Source: Bacteroidetes bacterium MED-G13 (lineage in GTDB: Bacteria; Bacteroidota; Bacteroidia; Flavobacteriales; Flavobacteriaceae). From it: a stretch of DNA of 64,000 nucleotides. Under the pieces are notes generated by a model that searched no databases, was not told the DNA's origin, and saw only the letters and a list, made by a program, of their open reading frames with translations. Below are positions 1 through 16,140 of the stretch, in pieces (positions within the stretch are counted from its first letter, which is position 1; each line of letters begins with the position of its first letter). The DNA is taken from assembly GCA_002457735.1 (NCBI GenBank), contig NTKO01000002.1, positions 35,433-99,432 on the forward strand, in the 5' to 3' direction. The position numbers and the translations under genes are program-made.

Positions 1-1483
1 TTATAACCGAAACAATATTTTCTCTCGTTGTTAAACTGGATTCATCCCTATCTGGATTTGAAGAACCATAATCATCTCTAAACAACTTAATTGACTCATA
101 TCTAATACCAGGAGATACAGTTAGTCCATTTATTTTATACTTGTACATTATGTATGATGCAATCGATTTTGCAGAACTAATCCTATTGCCCTGTGCTCCT
201 AATTCACCTAAGGTTTCTAAATACATTTGTTCACCATTAATTCCATATATGTCTTCCCACTGAAATCTATCTTCTTCATCGTAATGAAATCTTAGTCCAA
301 TTTCCAAATCATTAAATCCTCCATTATTAGGGTACCAGTGGTAATCAAATTTTGTTTGAAATCCTTTTGAAATATATTTTCTATTATTTGCTTTTACTTT
401 TAATGAACTGTTGTAATCTAAATATCCATTGATTATTGAAAAATGATTTGGATATTGCTCTGGATTTGAAATAACTTTTGAAATTTTTTGTGAATTATTT
501 TCAAAAACAACATCATCTAATTTATACCAATTTCTTTTGAATTTGTTAAAATAGAGATTTGAAGTAAGTTTTAGCTTATCATTAAATAAAAATTCGTGAG
601 TTAGCATATACTGAAGATGCTCAGCATCCATTTTATCATTTTGTGATGCCGGATAGCGTAAAAAAGGATCATTATTAAAATCTAAATCTGTTAAACCAAG
701 ATAAGTCTCATTAGAAATTTCATCATAATGATGAAATTTTAATTCTAAAGACTGAATAGTTTTTTTGTCTTTAACGAATTTATATTTAATTTTTGAAGTT
801 ATTTCACTAATATCAAATCCTGAATTAAAATTATTGACAAGCGACTTAAAGCCATCTGAATTATAATTTAAATACTCAAACACGTAACCAAAGTTTTTTT
901 TAGTATTTCCAAAAAGTGCATATGTTTTAGCAGAATTAAAATTACCAATATTTGTCTCCAATCTTACTTTTGATCTGTCTGGGATTTCTGTAGAAATAAA
1001 ATTGATTGCGCCACCTGTAGTATAAGGGCCATATTGTATTTGACTACTCCCTTTTAGAACCTCAACAGCCTGCATACGAGCAACGGAAGGAAAATAATAA
1101 GCAGAGGAAGCACTGTATGGTGCGGGTGCTATTGGAATACCATCTTCCATTATTACAATTTTTGAACTTCTTTCGGCTGAGGTACCTCGGATACTTATAT
1201 TTGGTCGTAATCCAAAACCATCTTCTTCATAAAGATTTATTCCTGGAATCCTTTTTAAAGATCTATTTACATCGGTATTAATATAATCTGTAAGCTCTTC
1301 AAATGATAAGTAATATGCAGCTCCAGTTCTGTTGTTAGCCATGAATTTACTACCAAGAATTCTGTTTGGTTTTATCAAAATTTCATCAATTGGTACAGTA
1401 TCAATTTTATTTACATAAATTTCATTACTATAAAGGCTAGTTACAACTAATAATTTGAAAAGAATAAAAATAAATGTCCTCAT
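1..1483 (-). CDS. TonB-dependent receptor, FecA-like (partial; C-terminus lies beyond the window start)
   Basis: Minus-strand reading from the ATG at 1483: signal-like N-terminus MRTFIFILFKLLVVTSLYS, plug domain RIPGINLYEEDGFGLRPNISIRGTSAERSSKIVIMEDGIPIAPAPYSASSAYYFPSVARMQAVEVLKGSSQIQYGPYTTGGAINFIST, then barrel-like sequence open to base 1. Absent from the ORF track because it has no stop in the window. Confidence 0.9.
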   Translation of the reverse strand, partial: MRTFIFILFKLLVVTSLYSNEIYVNKIDTVPIDEILIKPNRILGSKFMANNRTGAAYYLSFEELTDYINTDVNRSLKRIPGINLYEEDGFGLRPNISIRGTSAERSSKIVIMEDGIPIAPAPYSASSAYYFPSVARMQAVEVLKGSSQIQYGPYTTGGAINFISTEIPDRSKVRLETNIGNFNSAKTYALFGNTKKNFGYVFEYLNYNSDGFKSLVNNFNSGFDISEITSKIKYKFVKDKKTIQSLELKFHHYDEISNETYLGLTDLDFNNDPFLRYPASQNDKMDAEHLQYMLTHEFLFNDKLKLTSNLYFNKFKRNWYKLDDVVFENNSQKISKVISNPEQYPNHFSIINGYLDYNSSLKVKANNRKYISKGFQTKFDYHWYPNNGGFNDLEIGLRFHYDEEDRFQWEDIYGINGEQMYLETLGELGAQGNRISSAKSIASYIMYKYKINGLTVSPGIRYESIKLFRDDYGSSNPDRDESSLTTRENIVSVI

Positions 1484-1529: not shown

Positions 1530-1537
1530 CAAATATA
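1530..1537 (-). promoter_or_regulatory. Putative Bacteroidota -7 element (TATATTTG) for the TonB receptor
   Basis: Plus-strand CAAATATA = TANNTTTG on the minus strand, 47 bp upstream of the ATG at 1483. Confidence 0.5.
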
Positions 1538-1707: not shown

Positions 1708-1715
1708 TATCTTTG
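1708..1715 (+). promoter_or_regulatory. Putative -7 element TATCTTTG for the heme operon
   Basis: Matches TANNTTTG, 18 bp upstream of the proposed hemA ATG at 1734. Confidence 0.4.
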
Positions 1716-10234: not shown

Positions 10235-11567
10235 AAGCTTTCCTAAAAAAGTAGATAATCTTATAATTGGTGCTGGTATAACCGGTTTGTCACTTGCTCA
10301 TTTTTTAAAAAAATTTAATCAAGATTTTATTATACTTGAGTCTTCTAAAAGAATTGGAGGAAATATTAATACAGTTTCAAAAAAGGGCTTTACTCTTGAA
10401 AACGGACCTAACACACTGCTTTTAGACAATAAGTCTATTCAGGCTTTAATTGAAGATTTTAATATTTCAAAAAATATCATTTTCCCAAATGAAAAGGCCA
10501 AAAATAGATTTTTAATCAAAAACCACATACTAACACCCATTCCTAAAAATCTTACTGATTTCTTGAAGTCAAACATATTGAGCTTCTCAGCAAAAATCAG
10601 AATCTTTTTTGAGCCATTTATAAAAAAACACAAAAAAGATACAAGTGTATTTAACTTTATTGTTAAAAGATTTGGTAAAGAATTTCACGACAACCTAATT
10701 GTGCCATTTTTAAATGGTATATATGCTGGGGATACCAAAAAAATGAGCATAAAATTTGTGCTTAGAAAAGTTTGGGAAATGGAACAAAAAAATGGAAGTA
10801 TTTTAAAATCTATTTTTTTAAATAAAACAAATTATCAACCAAAATCTTTTAGTTTTAAAAATGGACTTTCTGACCTTTTGGATTGTTTTAAAAAAGAACT
10901 TGATAAAAACATATTTTTAAAAATAAAAGTTACAAGTTTAACCAAGAAAAATAACCTTAATTTTGTTCAAATTAATGACGGCCAAGAAATTCAATGCAAG
11001 AATATAATTTCTACCATACCAGCACACTGTCTAAAAGATATTATTACAGATCAAAAAATAATTACTTGTCTAAAAAAAATTGAATATCATCCATTAAATG
11101 TTTTACATTTTAGCTTGGAAAGAAATAAAATTTATAGCCCCATTGATGGATTTGGAGTTTTAGCAAAACCAAGTGATAAACTATCATTTTTAGGAATTTT
11201 ATTTAACTCAAGAATATTTCCTCATCTTTCCCCTAAAAAATATGATCTAATTACTGTAATGGTAGGTGGGGCTAAACAAAAGAACATTCTTAAAAAACCA
11301 AAAAAAGAAATTGAGAAAAGAGTTATTTCGGATATCAAAAAAATTATAAATTTTGAAGGTAAAATTGTATTACTAAATCAATTTTCCTGGAAAAAAGGTA
11401 TACCGCAATATGATATGAATTTTTTAAATCTTTCTAAGTCAATAAAAAATTTTACACAAAAAAATCCTGGATTATTTATAATTGGTAATTTTCTAGAGGG
11501 TGTTTCTGTAAGTAATTGTATTAAAGCTGGACACAAAACTGCACAATTACTCTGTGAAAAAGTTTGA
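10227..11567 (+). CDS. hemG: Protoporphyrinogen oxidase (FAD-dependent, HemY/HemG-type)
   Basis: LIIGAGITGLSLAHFLK dinucleotide-binding motif, ENGPNTLL, VPFLNGIYAGDTKKMS, C-terminal GNFLEGVSVSNCIKAG. Confidence 0.9.
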   Translation: MPKSFPKKVDNLIIGAGITGLSLAHFLKKFNQDFIILESSKRIGGNINTVSKKGFTLENGPNTLLLDNKSIQALIEDFNISKNIIFPNEKAKNRFLIKNHILTPIPKNLTDFLKSNILSFSAKIRIFFEPFIKKHKKDTSVFNFIVKRFGKEFHDNLIVPFLNGIYAGDTKKMSIKFVLRKVWEMEQKNGSILKSIFLNKTNYQPKSFSFKNGLSDLLDCFKKELDKNIFLKIKVTSLTKKNNLNFVQINDGQEIQCKNIISTIPAHCLKDIITDQKIITCLKKIEYHPLNVLHFSLERNKIYSPIDGFGVLAKPSDKLSFLGILFNSRIFPHLSPKKYDLITVMVGGAKQKNILKKPKKEIEKRVISDIKKIINFEGKIVLLNQFSWKKGIPQYDMNFLNLSKSIKNFTQKNPGLFIIGNFLEGVSVSNCIKAGHKTAQLLCEKV

Positions 11568-12512
11568 GCAACCTTTATCAAAATAAATTAAATCTTCTTC
11601 TAAATATTCAAAGCAAACCTTAGAGTTTATTTTAATCGGTTCTTTTGAGAAAACTGACCAAATATTATTATTATATAAACCAATAATCTTATAGTCTTTT
11701 CCTTGAAAAAAACATTTCTTTGCATTCATTGACAATTTTGAATGTTTTACTATTTTTATATTCTCAGGTCTTATATAGAATGTTTTTTTACCGATGGATA
11801 ATTTATTTATATCACCTAAAATTTCAGCACAATAACAATTAGCAGGTTTACAATACATTGTAGTTGGGTTCGAAAATTGTTGTACTACTCCAGCCTTAAA
11901 TACTAAAATTTTATCAGAAATATTTAATGCATCATTAATATCATGGGTTACCAATATTGTAGTTGTTTTAGTTTTCTTTACAATATTGCAAATTTCATCT
12001 CTAACTTGATGCTTTATATTTGAATCCAAGTTACTAAAAGGCTCATCCAATAATAACAAGTCAGGTTCTCTAATAATCGATCTTGCAATACAAGCCCTTT
12101 GTTGTTCCCCACCTGAAATTTCGTGAGGATATCTGTTCAAAATTGATTTTAAATTTGTTAATGAAACGACTGAATCAAAATTAGAATTAAACTTTATATC
12201 TAAATTAAAGCAAATATTTTCTCTTATATTCAAATGTGGAAATAAGGCGTAATCTTGAAATACATAACTTATTTTCCTTTGCTGAGGAGGTATAAAGGTA
12301 TTATGGCTACTAATTATTTTACCATTTAAAATTATTTCACCACCATCAATTTTTTCTAGACCCGAAAGACATTTAAGGAAAGTTGATTTTCCAGCTCCAC
12401 TCTCACCTACAAATGACAACAATTCACCCTTTTGCAATTGAAAATTTAGTTTTTTTAAAACTGGTAGGTTATCAGCGTATGATTTTATTAAGTCTTTAAC
12501 TTCTAGAAACAT
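11547..12512 (-). CDS. Fe(III) ABC transporter ATP-binding protein (FbpC/FutC-like)
   Basis: Walker A GESGAGKST, ISGGEQQRACIARSI, LLLDEPFSNLD; operon context with permease and Fe-binding protein. Confidence 0.88.
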   Translation of the reverse strand: MFLEVKDLIKSYADNLPVLKKLNFQLQKGELLSFVGESGAGKSTFLKCLSGLEKIDGGEIILNGKIISSHNTFIPPQQRKISYVFQDYALFPHLNIRENICFNLDIKFNSNFDSVVSLTNLKSILNRYPHEISGGEQQRACIARSIIREPDLLLLDEPFSNLDSNIKHQVRDEICNIVKKTKTTTILVTHDINDALNISDKILVFKAGVVQQFSNPTTMYCKPANCYCAEILGDINKLSIGKKTFYIRPENIKIVKHSKLSMNAKKCFFQGKDYKIIGLYNNNIWSVFSKEPIKINSKVCFEYLEEDLIYFDKGCSNFFTE

Positions 12513-14064
12513 TTATCCTGCTTATAATATTTTTAAAAATAATTAATAGTATACTGCAAACAAATATAATTACTAAAGAATAAATTGAAGATAATGGAAG
12601 CATTTCTTCAATTGCGAACTCATATGTTTGAGTTGCAAGGGTATCAAAATTAAATGGCCTCAGTATTAAAATTATTGGCAACTCTTTCATTAAATCAATA
12701 AAAACCAAAATCAATGCAGAAACAAAAGATAATTTATTTACAGGTAAATATATTTTTTGAAAAATTTTAAATCTTTTTAATCCGAGTGATTCTGCAGTTA
12801 AGTCATACGTTTTAGGTAATTTTTCAAATCCAGATTTAATAGGAGATTTTCCAACAGCCATGAATCTAATTAAGTATGCGTAAATGAGAATAAAAAGATA
12901 TACATAAAAATTACCCAAAAGATTAATGGAATCAATATTTTTATCAATACTTGTGAAATATATAATTATTGCAAGAGCAATGACTGCACCAGGGATTGAG
13001 TAACCAAGTGATATAAATTGATTTATATAAAAATATATTTTTGAATTTGAAAATCTCTCATTAAACAAAAAATATACAGAAACAACCAGTATAATTATTG
13101 AAGATATTAATGAAATTGATACCGAATTAATTGTTAATTGAAGAAGGTTTGATATATCAATTTTATCAAAGTTGTCTATTACATTTGAAATATTAAATAA
13201 AACAGGAATGAAAAAAGAAAATATAATTGGTATGAGGCAAGCCAGGTAAATTAATAGTTTTTGATTAATAGTACTATTAATTAGTTCAATTGGATTAGAA
13301 TTTTTTAAGTAAGAAAATAGCTTTTTTTTATTTATTTTTTTTTCTATAAAAAATAAAAACGCTACAATAAATAAAAGAATTGAAGAAAGCTGTATAGCGG
13401 CACCAGTATCATTCATTGAATTCCATGTTCTAAAAATACCAATAGTATATGTATTTACTCCAAAATATTTTACTGCACCGTATTCATTTAACACCTCCAT
13501 AATAACTAAAAAAAGACCAGAAAAAATAGCTGGTTTTGAAAGTGGAATTATAATTTTAAAAAAGGACTTGTATACACTTAACCCTAAAATCTTGCCCATG
13601 TTAATAAATTTTGAACCCATCAAACTAAAAGATATTCTTGAAACAGCATATATGTATGGAAATAAGGAAAATGAAAGTATTATGCCTAAAATCTCTAGTT
13701 GTAAAAAATCGGCTTTAATTTTTAGTGGCCCTGTAAAACTCAATATCTCAGCATAAGTAAAAGCCATAATATAAGTTGGAATTGAAAGAGGTAAAAAAAG
13801 AAGTACATCAATAATACTTCGCCCATAAAATCTAAAATTACTGACATACCAAGCTGGAATTATCCCAAGAATAAGTGAAAATACTGAGGTTATGATAATT
13901 AACTTAAAAGTACTGGAGCTGTAATCTAATAAAAGGTTCTCAAACACATATACCAAAGATTCTGTCTCGGAAAAGAAAGAGGTAAAAACAAGGAATAATA
14001 TTGGAAAAAAAATTATTCCAAATATTAAAAAAGCAAATTTTTCGTTTTTTTTAAAAGTATTCAA
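12496..14064 (-). CDS. Iron ABC transporter permease (FbpB/FutB-like)
   Basis: Hydrophobic protein with duplicated permease halves (LPLSIPTYIMAFTYAEIL.. and ..YSIPGAVIALAIIIYF; LGLSVYKSFFKIIIPLSKPAI EAA-like loop). Confidence 0.88.
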   Translation of the reverse strand: MNTFKKNEKFAFLIFGIIFFPILFLVFTSFFSETESLVYVFENLLLDYSSSTFKLIIITSVFSLILGIIPAWYVSNFRFYGRSIIDVLLFLPLSIPTYIMAFTYAEILSFTGPLKIKADFLQLEILGIILSFSLFPYIYAVSRISFSLMGSKFINMGKILGLSVYKSFFKIIIPLSKPAIFSGLFLVIMEVLNEYGAVKYFGVNTYTIGIFRTWNSMNDTGAAIQLSSILLFIVAFLFFIEKKINKKKLFSYLKNSNPIELINSTINQKLLIYLACLIPIIFSFFIPVLFNISNVIDNFDKIDISNLLQLTINSVSISLISSIIILVVSVYFLFNERFSNSKIYFYINQFISLGYSIPGAVIALAIIIYFTSIDKNIDSINLLGNFYVYLFILIYAYLIRFMAVGKSPIKSGFEKLPKTYDLTAESLGLKRFKIFQKIYLPVNKLSFVSALILVFIDLMKELPIILILRPFNFDTLATQTYEFAIEEMLPLSSIYSLVIIFVCSILLIIFKNIISRINVSRS

Positions 14065-14070
14065 GTTGAT

Positions 14071-15093
14071 TTATTTCCATCCGGTTTTATCAAAAACCTT
14101 AATTGCATCATCTCTAAATGACCCAAGCAAATTTAAATCTAAATTATCAATTTTAAAATCCCCCCAGGATGAAACAATATCCGATGGATTAACAAGGGGA
14201 TTTGCAGGATACTCATAGCTATTATTTACATATATATTTTGTGCCTCCTCCCCGGTTAAATACTCTAATAATTTTATTGCATTTTCTTTATTAGGTGGAT
14301 TTTTTGTCATAGCATAGCCTGAAATGTTAATGTGCGTACCTCTATCTCCTTCAGCTTGATTAGGAAAAAATATTGAGACAGAATTTCCAGCATCAATTTC
14401 CGCTAGTTTTTCCGATGATAATAACAAACCAATGTAATAGGAATTTACTATTGCTAAGTCACCTTGACCTGCAGCAATTGCCTTTACCTGATCTCTGTCA
14501 TTTCCTTTGGGATTTCTTGCAAAATTATTAACTAAACCTTTAGACCATTTAGTAACATCATCTTTACCAAGATTTGCATACATAGCTGACATAAGAGCTT
14601 GATTATAGGCATTCGAAGATGACCTAACTAATATTCTACCCTTCCATTTTGGATTTGCTAAATCCTCATAAGTACTTAATTGATCCAATGAAACTCTATC
14701 TTTACTGTAAACTATAAGTCTTGCTCTGTAAGTAATTGGTATCCAGTACTTATGAGGATCCTTTAACTCACTTCTAACATTTGCATCAATTTTATCATTA
14801 ATAATTTTTTGAAATAACTCCATTTCAACTCCCTTTTGAAGTTTTCCTGCGTCAACAGTAACATAAAGATCAGCCGGGCTATTTAAACCTTCATTTTTTA
14901 ATCTTTCCAAAAGTTCATCATCTCCTGCTTTAACAATATTAACCTTAATTCCTGTTTTTTCTTCAAATTTTTTGTATAAGAGCTTGTCTACCTCATAATG
15001 TCTTTTACTATAAATGTTAATTTCATTTTTTTCATTTTTAGTACATGAGCCTAAAAAAATGGAAATTGAAATTAATATTAAATATCTTTTCAT
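14071..15093 (-). CDS. Fe(III)-binding ABC transporter lipoprotein (FbpA/FutA-like)
   Basis: Lipoprotein signal MKRYLILISISIFLGSC from ATG 15093 (ORF track starts at 15126); EINIYSKRHYEVDKLLYKKFEEKTGIKV; paired Tyr IVNSYYIG. Confidence 0.9.
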   Translation of the reverse strand: MKRYLILISISIFLGSCTKNEKNEINIYSKRHYEVDKLLYKKFEEKTGIKVNIVKAGDDELLERLKNEGLNSPADLYVTVDAGKLQKGVEMELFQKIINDKIDANVRSELKDPHKYWIPITYRARLIVYSKDRVSLDQLSTYEDLANPKWKGRILVRSSSNAYNQALMSAMYANLGKDDVTKWSKGLVNNFARNPKGNDRDQVKAIAAGQGDLAIVNSYYIGLLLSSEKLAEIDAGNSVSIFFPNQAEGDRGTHINISGYAMTKNPPNKENAIKLLEYLTGEEAQNIYVNNSYEYPANPLVNPSDIVSSWGDFKIDNLDLNLLGSFRDDAIKVFDKTGWK

Positions 15094-15102
15094 TTTGTTG
15101 TT

Positions 15103-15121
15103 ATTTAGAGTTATTCTAAAT
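15103..15121. promoter_or_regulatory. 19-bp palindrome ATTTAGA-GTTAT-TCTAAAT, candidate operator of fbpABC
   Basis: Read directly: 7-bp perfect arms, 5-bp centre, 10 bp upstream of the fbpA ATG; identical arms to 1545-1563. Confidence 0.6.
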
Positions 15122-15239
15122 TGCAAGATAGTTATTAAAATAAAAAAACCTCGTGAAGTGCTTGATTATTTTATCATTCATTTATTACAAACTATTAAAA
15201 TACTTCAAATGAAAAAGAAGAAATTGGTTTAATTATTGA

Positions 15240-15267: not shown

Positions 15268-16140
15268 ATGAATCTTGTTAGTAGCTGTCAATCTTTTGAA
15301 GTTGAAGTAGAAGAAAATTTTTTTGTTGTAAAAAATGAAAATCAAGAAAAAAATAATTTAAACTACAGAAAAACTATTGATAATAGTTTTATCCAATTCC
15401 ATTTTGCTTTGTCAGGCAACTCTGTTTTTAAATTCAGTGTTTTTTATAAAATGGAAGTTAAAAATGGGGATTATGTTGTTCTTTATAATCCAAACAAAAA
15501 TTTACCTGTTAATATTACTGTTAATCAAAACTCAACTCTATTTTCAATTTTTATTTCTATAAAAAAATTTCATAAGCTTTTTTCTGAAGATGCAGATAAT
15601 ATTCATTTTTTAAAAGATGAAAATATTTCCGAAAAGTATTATCACAAGAGTAATATTCCAAATTCAACCTTACTAATTTTAAATGAATTAAAACGATTTG
15701 ATAATAATAGCTCGACAAAAAAACTTTTTTTGAAAGCCAAGATATATGAATTATTTAGTTATATATTCAATAAAAACAGAGATCTTAATGTAGAGCAATG
15801 CCCCTATTTAAATAATGAAGAAAACTTTAAAAAAATCAAAAAAGCTAAAGAAATAGTTATCGAGAATATGACAAATCCGCCTACGTTAAAAGATTTATCT
15901 TTTGAAATTGATTTAAGTCTAAAAAAATTAAAAGAAGGATTTAAAAAAATATACGGTAAACCTGTTTACCAGTTTTTACTGGAACACAAAATGGAGTTAG
16001 CTAAAAAATTGCTTTCAGATAGCAAAAACAATGTTAATGAAGTAAGTTTGAAACTTGGATACAGTACTGCAAGTCATTTTATTGCAGCTTTTAAAAATAG
16101 ATTTGGAGTTACCCCAAAGATGTTTAAAAAAAATTATTGA
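15268..16140 (+). CDS. AraC-family transcriptional regulator
   Basis: C-terminal double HTH: PPTLKDLSFEIDLSLKKLKEGFKKIYGKPVYQFLLEHKMELAKKLLSDSKNNVNEVSLKLGYSTASHFIAAFKNRFGVTPKMFKKN. Confidence 0.93.
   Translation: MNLVSSCQSFEVEVEENFFVVKNENQEKNNLNYRKTIDNSFIQFHFALSGNSVFKFSVFYKMEVKNGDYVVLYNPNKNLPVNITVNQNSTLFSIFISIKKFHKLFSEDADNIHFLKDENISEKYYHKSNIPNSTLLILNELKRFDNNSSTKKLFLKAKIYELFSYIFNKNRDLNVEQCPYLNNEENFKKIKKAKEIVIENMTNPPTLKDLSFEIDLSLKKLKEGFKKIYGKPVYQFLLEHKMELAKKLLSDSKNNVNEVSLKLGYSTASHFIAAFKNRFGVTPKMFKKNY

Follow-up and report, generated by a model that had tools for sequence, protein, structure and literature searches.

Why does the same 19-bp palindrome stand in front of two iron-uptake units of MED-G13, and which regulator would bind it? 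The window, by which we mean the whole 64-kb stretch of DNA that was analysed (64,000 nucleotides), contains 2 exact copies of ATTTAGA-N5-TCTAAAT. The features that bear on the question are listed below.

2–1483, minus strand: gene for a TonB-dependent receptor, truncated by the window edge (751-aa open frame), with a Plug domain and similarity to FecA and siderophore receptors
1530–1537, minus strand: TATATTTG, −7 box of canonical TAnnTTTG form for the TonB-receptor gene, lying 7 nt beyond the palindrome
1545–1563, unstranded: second putative Fur-box palindrome, ATTTAGA-TTTAA-TCTAAAT, exact match; in the TonB-receptor promoter it probably spans about −38 to −20
11547–12512, minus strand: gene for an fbpC-like ABC ATPase
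12496–14064, minus strand: gene for an fbpB-like permease with two BPD_transp_1 stretches
14071–15093, minus strand: gene for an fbpA/futA-like Fe3+ ABC substrate-binding lipoprotein of 340 aa, assigned by PDB matches and Pfam SBP_bac_6/8
15103–15121, unstranded: putative Fur-box palindrome ATTTAGA-GTTAT-TCTAAAT, exact match; on the fbpA promoter, probable position −3 to +16
15123–15130, minus strand: TATCTTGC, TAnnTTGY-type −7 box of fbpA, similar to SM5 (PMC9723704), one base before the palindrome
15268–16140, plus strand: gene for an AraC-family regulator (HTH_18), divergent from fbpA

The preliminary description had proposed that 15103–15121 is a second copy of an operator, that it is close to the fbpA start, and that its arms are identical to those of the site before the TonB receptor, with the same spacing and a different 5-bp centre. 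These points were all confirmed. The coordinates and the sequence are exact, the centres are GTTAT and TTTAA, and nine bases separate the palindrome from the ATG at 15093. The best PDB matches of the fbpA product are iron-binding proteins, including 2pt1 (E 6e-96), which we take to be FutA1 of Synechocystis.

At the base composition of the window, approximately 0.005–0.006 exact 7+N5+7 matches per 64 kb are expected by chance. A scan of the window for the 7+7 arm pair at any other spacing from 0 to 40 returned none. When up to three mismatches were allowed, 30 matches were found versus 27.8 expected, which is the chance level and leaves the two perfect sites as the only ones that stand out. 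The shorter core TTTAGA-N5-TCTAAA (6+N5+6) has 2 exact matches in the organism's own genome assembly (1,061,404 bases, or 1.06 Mb, 82% complete), and both are the sites in the window.

The arms and the spacing equal those of the Fur box published for Riemerella anatipestifer, ATTTAGAATTATTCTAAAT, where Fur binding was demonstrated by EMSA on four promoter fragments (PMC5609570). The abstract of that paper gives an E. coli-type sequence as the putative box; the results text and the table give ATTTAGAATTATTCTAAAT. When the literature was searched for the exact consensus of the 19-mer, this paper was the sole match. In the same bacterium, rhuH is derepressed by deletion of fur or by mutation of the Fur box (PMC11967795), and feoAB is regulated by Fur (PMC10434265). 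The preliminary description named no regulator. The palindrome is very probably a flavobacterial-type Fur box, and repression of both fbpABC and the TonB receptor is predicted in high iron. It is an exact 19-bp palindrome, retained upstream of genes that are orthologous or related in function, and its two copies lie on the probable promoters, near the start codons, of genes for iron uptake (FutA/FbpA and the TonB receptor).

The position of the palindrome relative to each promoter can be estimated from the −7 boxes. In Flavobacterium psychrophilum, promoters with the TAnnTTGY form (the SM5 box) carry it at −12 to −5 (PMC9723704). If the TAnnTTGC box of fbpA is placed in the same way, we infer that the fbpA operator spans approximately −3 to +16 and that the leader is 25 nt long. 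The preliminary description had also noted a −7-like element on the minus strand next to the palindrome and had suggested that the palindrome covers the transcription start. The element, TATCTTGC, is found at 15130–15123 and keeps a fixed distance in 12 promoters, and on the SM5-box scale the palindrome would indeed cover the start. At the TonB receptor, the TATATTTG box 7 nt past the palindrome would place that operator at approximately −38 to −20. The canonical Bacteroidota box, TAnnTTTG, is present in 10 of the 28 leaders in the window (2.2 expected); the TAnnTTGY form occurs in the fbpA leader alone.

The combination of TAnnTTGC and palindrome at fbpA is found with the same spacing in the window, in ten relatives from the genus and in G024, which belongs to a second genus; these are the 12 promoters that were aligned. 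An eleventh relative with fbpA was left out because its contig ends at the promoter. The distance between the −7 box and the palindrome is constant in 12 of 12 promoters, with the first four bases of the box changed to TAAC in one and to TATA in another. The two arms are 0.99 and 1.0 identical and the −7 box region 0.975, compared with 0.63–0.78 for the flanks. The FbpA proteins themselves are 72–77% identical within the genus. The conservation of the TAnnTTGY box across the 12 promoters suggests an alternative, SM5-type promoter for fbpA in the genus.

The other palindrome, on the hemA side, is also retained across the genus, and in 11 of the 12 aligned sites TATATTTG lies at the same distance from it. 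In four relatives, a single contig holds the two sites at a separation of about 13.6 kb, as in the window. Between the fbpA unit and the TonB receptor is a heme-biosynthesis operon (gene names from sequence), which likely has its own promoter box, TATCTTTG (1708–1715, plus strand), approximately 145 bp from the left palindrome. The earlier proposal of a candidate operator shared by two iron-uptake units on either side of the heme operon is supported by the comparative data, with both sites conserved. In most of the genus (ten loci), the hemA-side box fronts a gene for a DUF4856 lipoprotein, and a TonB receptor follows it in the window genome and in one relative, G020. By comparison of sequences, this locus appears as a gene swap behind a retained operator. 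In the window, hemA (ATG at 1734; 1734–1960) contains a frameshift near 1785 that breaks the frame near its start and leaves the remainder open. The gene is intact in relatives, and the frameshift is either an assembly error or a recent mutation.

The abundance of the palindrome in the genus is not above that of a reversed-pattern control. Genome-wide counts were rejected as evidence since the reversed pattern is the commoner of the two. The position of the sites is more telling. Of the sites examined in genus relatives, 18 of 21 are intergenic versus 1 of 19 reversed-pattern control sites (Fisher p = 2e-7), a p value that overstates independence since the 21 sites are largely orthologous. The case for the palindrome is made from position and conservation, as abundance alone is uninformative. 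In some relatives, further matches fall within genes or precede genes that have no evident role in iron metabolism.

The same box is found before iron genes in other genera, where the downstream genes were assigned in part by Pfam scan and otherwise named by eye from sequence. Outside the genus, futA/fbpA is preceded by the box in G024 and in Ekhidna lutea, the latter with the same arms, ATTTAGATTGATTCTAAAT, then TACATTTG. In G033, and likewise in a MAG that carries the label Neomarinimicrobiota, futA/fbpA is preceded by a box with one mismatch. In the genome collection, three FutA/FbpA loci were found, one of them without the box. The FbpA encoded on a contig labelled Candidatus Neomarinimicrobiota (L058) is 56% identical and follows a box of the flavobacterial type; this contig is possibly mis-binned Bacteroidota. 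The palindrome also precedes feoA-feoB at two loci, TonB receptors at three, mrp/nbp35 at three, and a sufA/iscA-like and a sufB-like gene at one locus each, and eight genomes have it in the interval between hemA and araC. In the organism's own genome, 10 of the 11 one-mismatch matches to the core are intragenic. The sole intergenic one (C1:98741–98757, locus L004) is part of ATTTATATCCATTCTAAAT, a one-mismatch site at 1500–1518 of L004 (G000:C1:98740–98758) between genes for a cytochrome c and a SPOR-like protein. Boxes with perfect arms occupy the equivalent place in three relatives, and this site is likely a third, weaker Fur box.

It could be asked whether the palindrome is instead the operator of the divergent AraC-family regulator (15268–16140), controlling its neighbour fbpA. 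The start of that gene is 147 bp away, and similar AraC proteins adjoin the box in other genera, where they are encoded beside hemA with a box of their own (relatedness judged by eye from the N-terminal sequence). AraC proteins, however, usually read asymmetric or direct-repeat sites, and a perfect 19-bp dyad fits a homodimeric repressor rather than AraC. Where the box precedes feoAB, mrp, and suf genes, the listed neighbours include no araC; the box is also identical in arms and spacing to the published Fur box. We consider regulation by AraC to be very unlikely.

A Fur protein is available in the genus for the role proposed here. One full-length Fur is encoded in 14 of the 21 genus genomes, and the gaps are as incompleteness would give, the mean completeness being approximately 71%. 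The gene order relA-fur-purA was found in the nine fur loci that were read. In the window's own assembly (82% complete), no fur gene was found, and its genus neighbours relA and purA are missing as well. Since purA and relA are also absent, the locus is most simply placed in the missing part, and relA-fur-purA probably falls within the missing ~18% through incompleteness. An operator for DtxR/IdeR was rejected because no DtxR-family protein (PF01325) was matched in the 21 genus genomes, where 13 of 14 control genomes were positive. MliR, a MerR-like activator of iron genes, was also set aside; the passages of its description that were consulted (PMC9478572) report no palindromic site.

The Fur-family protein of the genus might nevertheless act in the opposite sense and repress under scarce iron, like alphaproteobacterial Irr. 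The ICE box of Irr is TTTAGAAnnnTTCTAAA, which the palindrome matches in core and spacing, and heme and Fe–S genes carry the site in relatives. Irr represses its targets under iron depletion (PMC3413700). Against NCBIfam models, the genus Fur scores weakly for Irr (38.9 and 36 bits) and higher for Fur (64 and 60 bits), with all of these scores below the curated cut-offs, and its best PDB matches are Fur. In addition, the genes targeted here serve uptake, and loss of fur in R. anatipestifer raises the expression of the targets (PMC11967795, PMC10434265). An Irr-like sense is accordingly judged highly improbable. To a hairpin in the fbpA leader affecting translation or transcript stability (19-mer RNA fold of −3.7 kcal/mol, z −2.9) we give almost no credence, and it was rejected because the fold is weak, part of the palindrome would be missing from a transcript whose predicted start lies inside the left arm, and the TonB-receptor palindrome, upstream of its −7 box, would stay untranscribed.

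By analogy with R. anatipestifer, we infer iron-dependent repression by Fur in MED-G13. Under plentiful iron, Fur dimers loaded with metal would occupy the palindrome; in that bacterium, Fur binds promoter fragments that carry this box. At fbpA, Fur would sit over the predicted transcription start just behind the TAnnTTGC −7 box, and at the TonB receptor it would cover the −33 region, just upstream of the TATATTTG −7 box; RNA polymerase would be blocked at both. When iron becomes scarce, Fur would leave, and both the TonB receptor and the Fe3+ ABC importer would be induced, jointly.

The type of box is already known from the related bacterium R. anatipestifer, and the site is largely ordinary. 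What is modestly new, judging by the sequences compared, is the reach of the box across genera, including genes for the use of iron, and its strict pairing with the TAnnTTGC box at fbpA. A Fur box known in one bird pathogen is hereby extended to a small-genome genus of Flavobacteriaceae and, by the company it repeatedly keeps, to many Flavobacteriales, and can serve as a ready-made operator model when iron regulons are predicted for uncultured members. The recurrent sites at hemA/AraC, mrp, suf, and cytochrome genes suggest that the regulon covers the use of iron in addition to its uptake. We tentatively raise the possibility that one ancestral box of this type governs an iron-economy regulon of the Flavobacteriales, with Feo, FutA/FbpA, and TonB receptors for uptake and the hemA/AraC divergon, Mrp/Nbp35, Suf, and a cytochrome c gene for use, and that fbpA of this genus is under dual control, by the box together with an alternative, SM5-type promoter.

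With the ICE box of Irr, the site shares the TTTAGA-N5-TCTAAA core, a Fur-family protein, and iron genes, and it differs in that the targets here are uptake genes for which repression is expected in high iron. Like the SM5 promoters of F. psychrophilum (PMC9723704), the fbpA promoter has a TAnnTTGY box in which the gap between TA and TTG is one base shorter than in the sigma-A box. The SM5 genes listed there function in LPS, peptide scavenging, and gliding rather than in iron metabolism, whereas the box here is coupled to a putative Fur box. Relative to the R. anatipestifer Fur box (PMC5609570), the centre is GTTAT or TTTAA here versus ATTAT there, and one candidate target here is a FutA/FbpA ABC importer of a small-genome bacterium. 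The two boxes have in common a length of 19 bp, the arms ATTTAGA and TCTAAAT, a 5-bp centre, a distance of 9–91 bp from the start codon, and a location before outer-membrane iron receptors.
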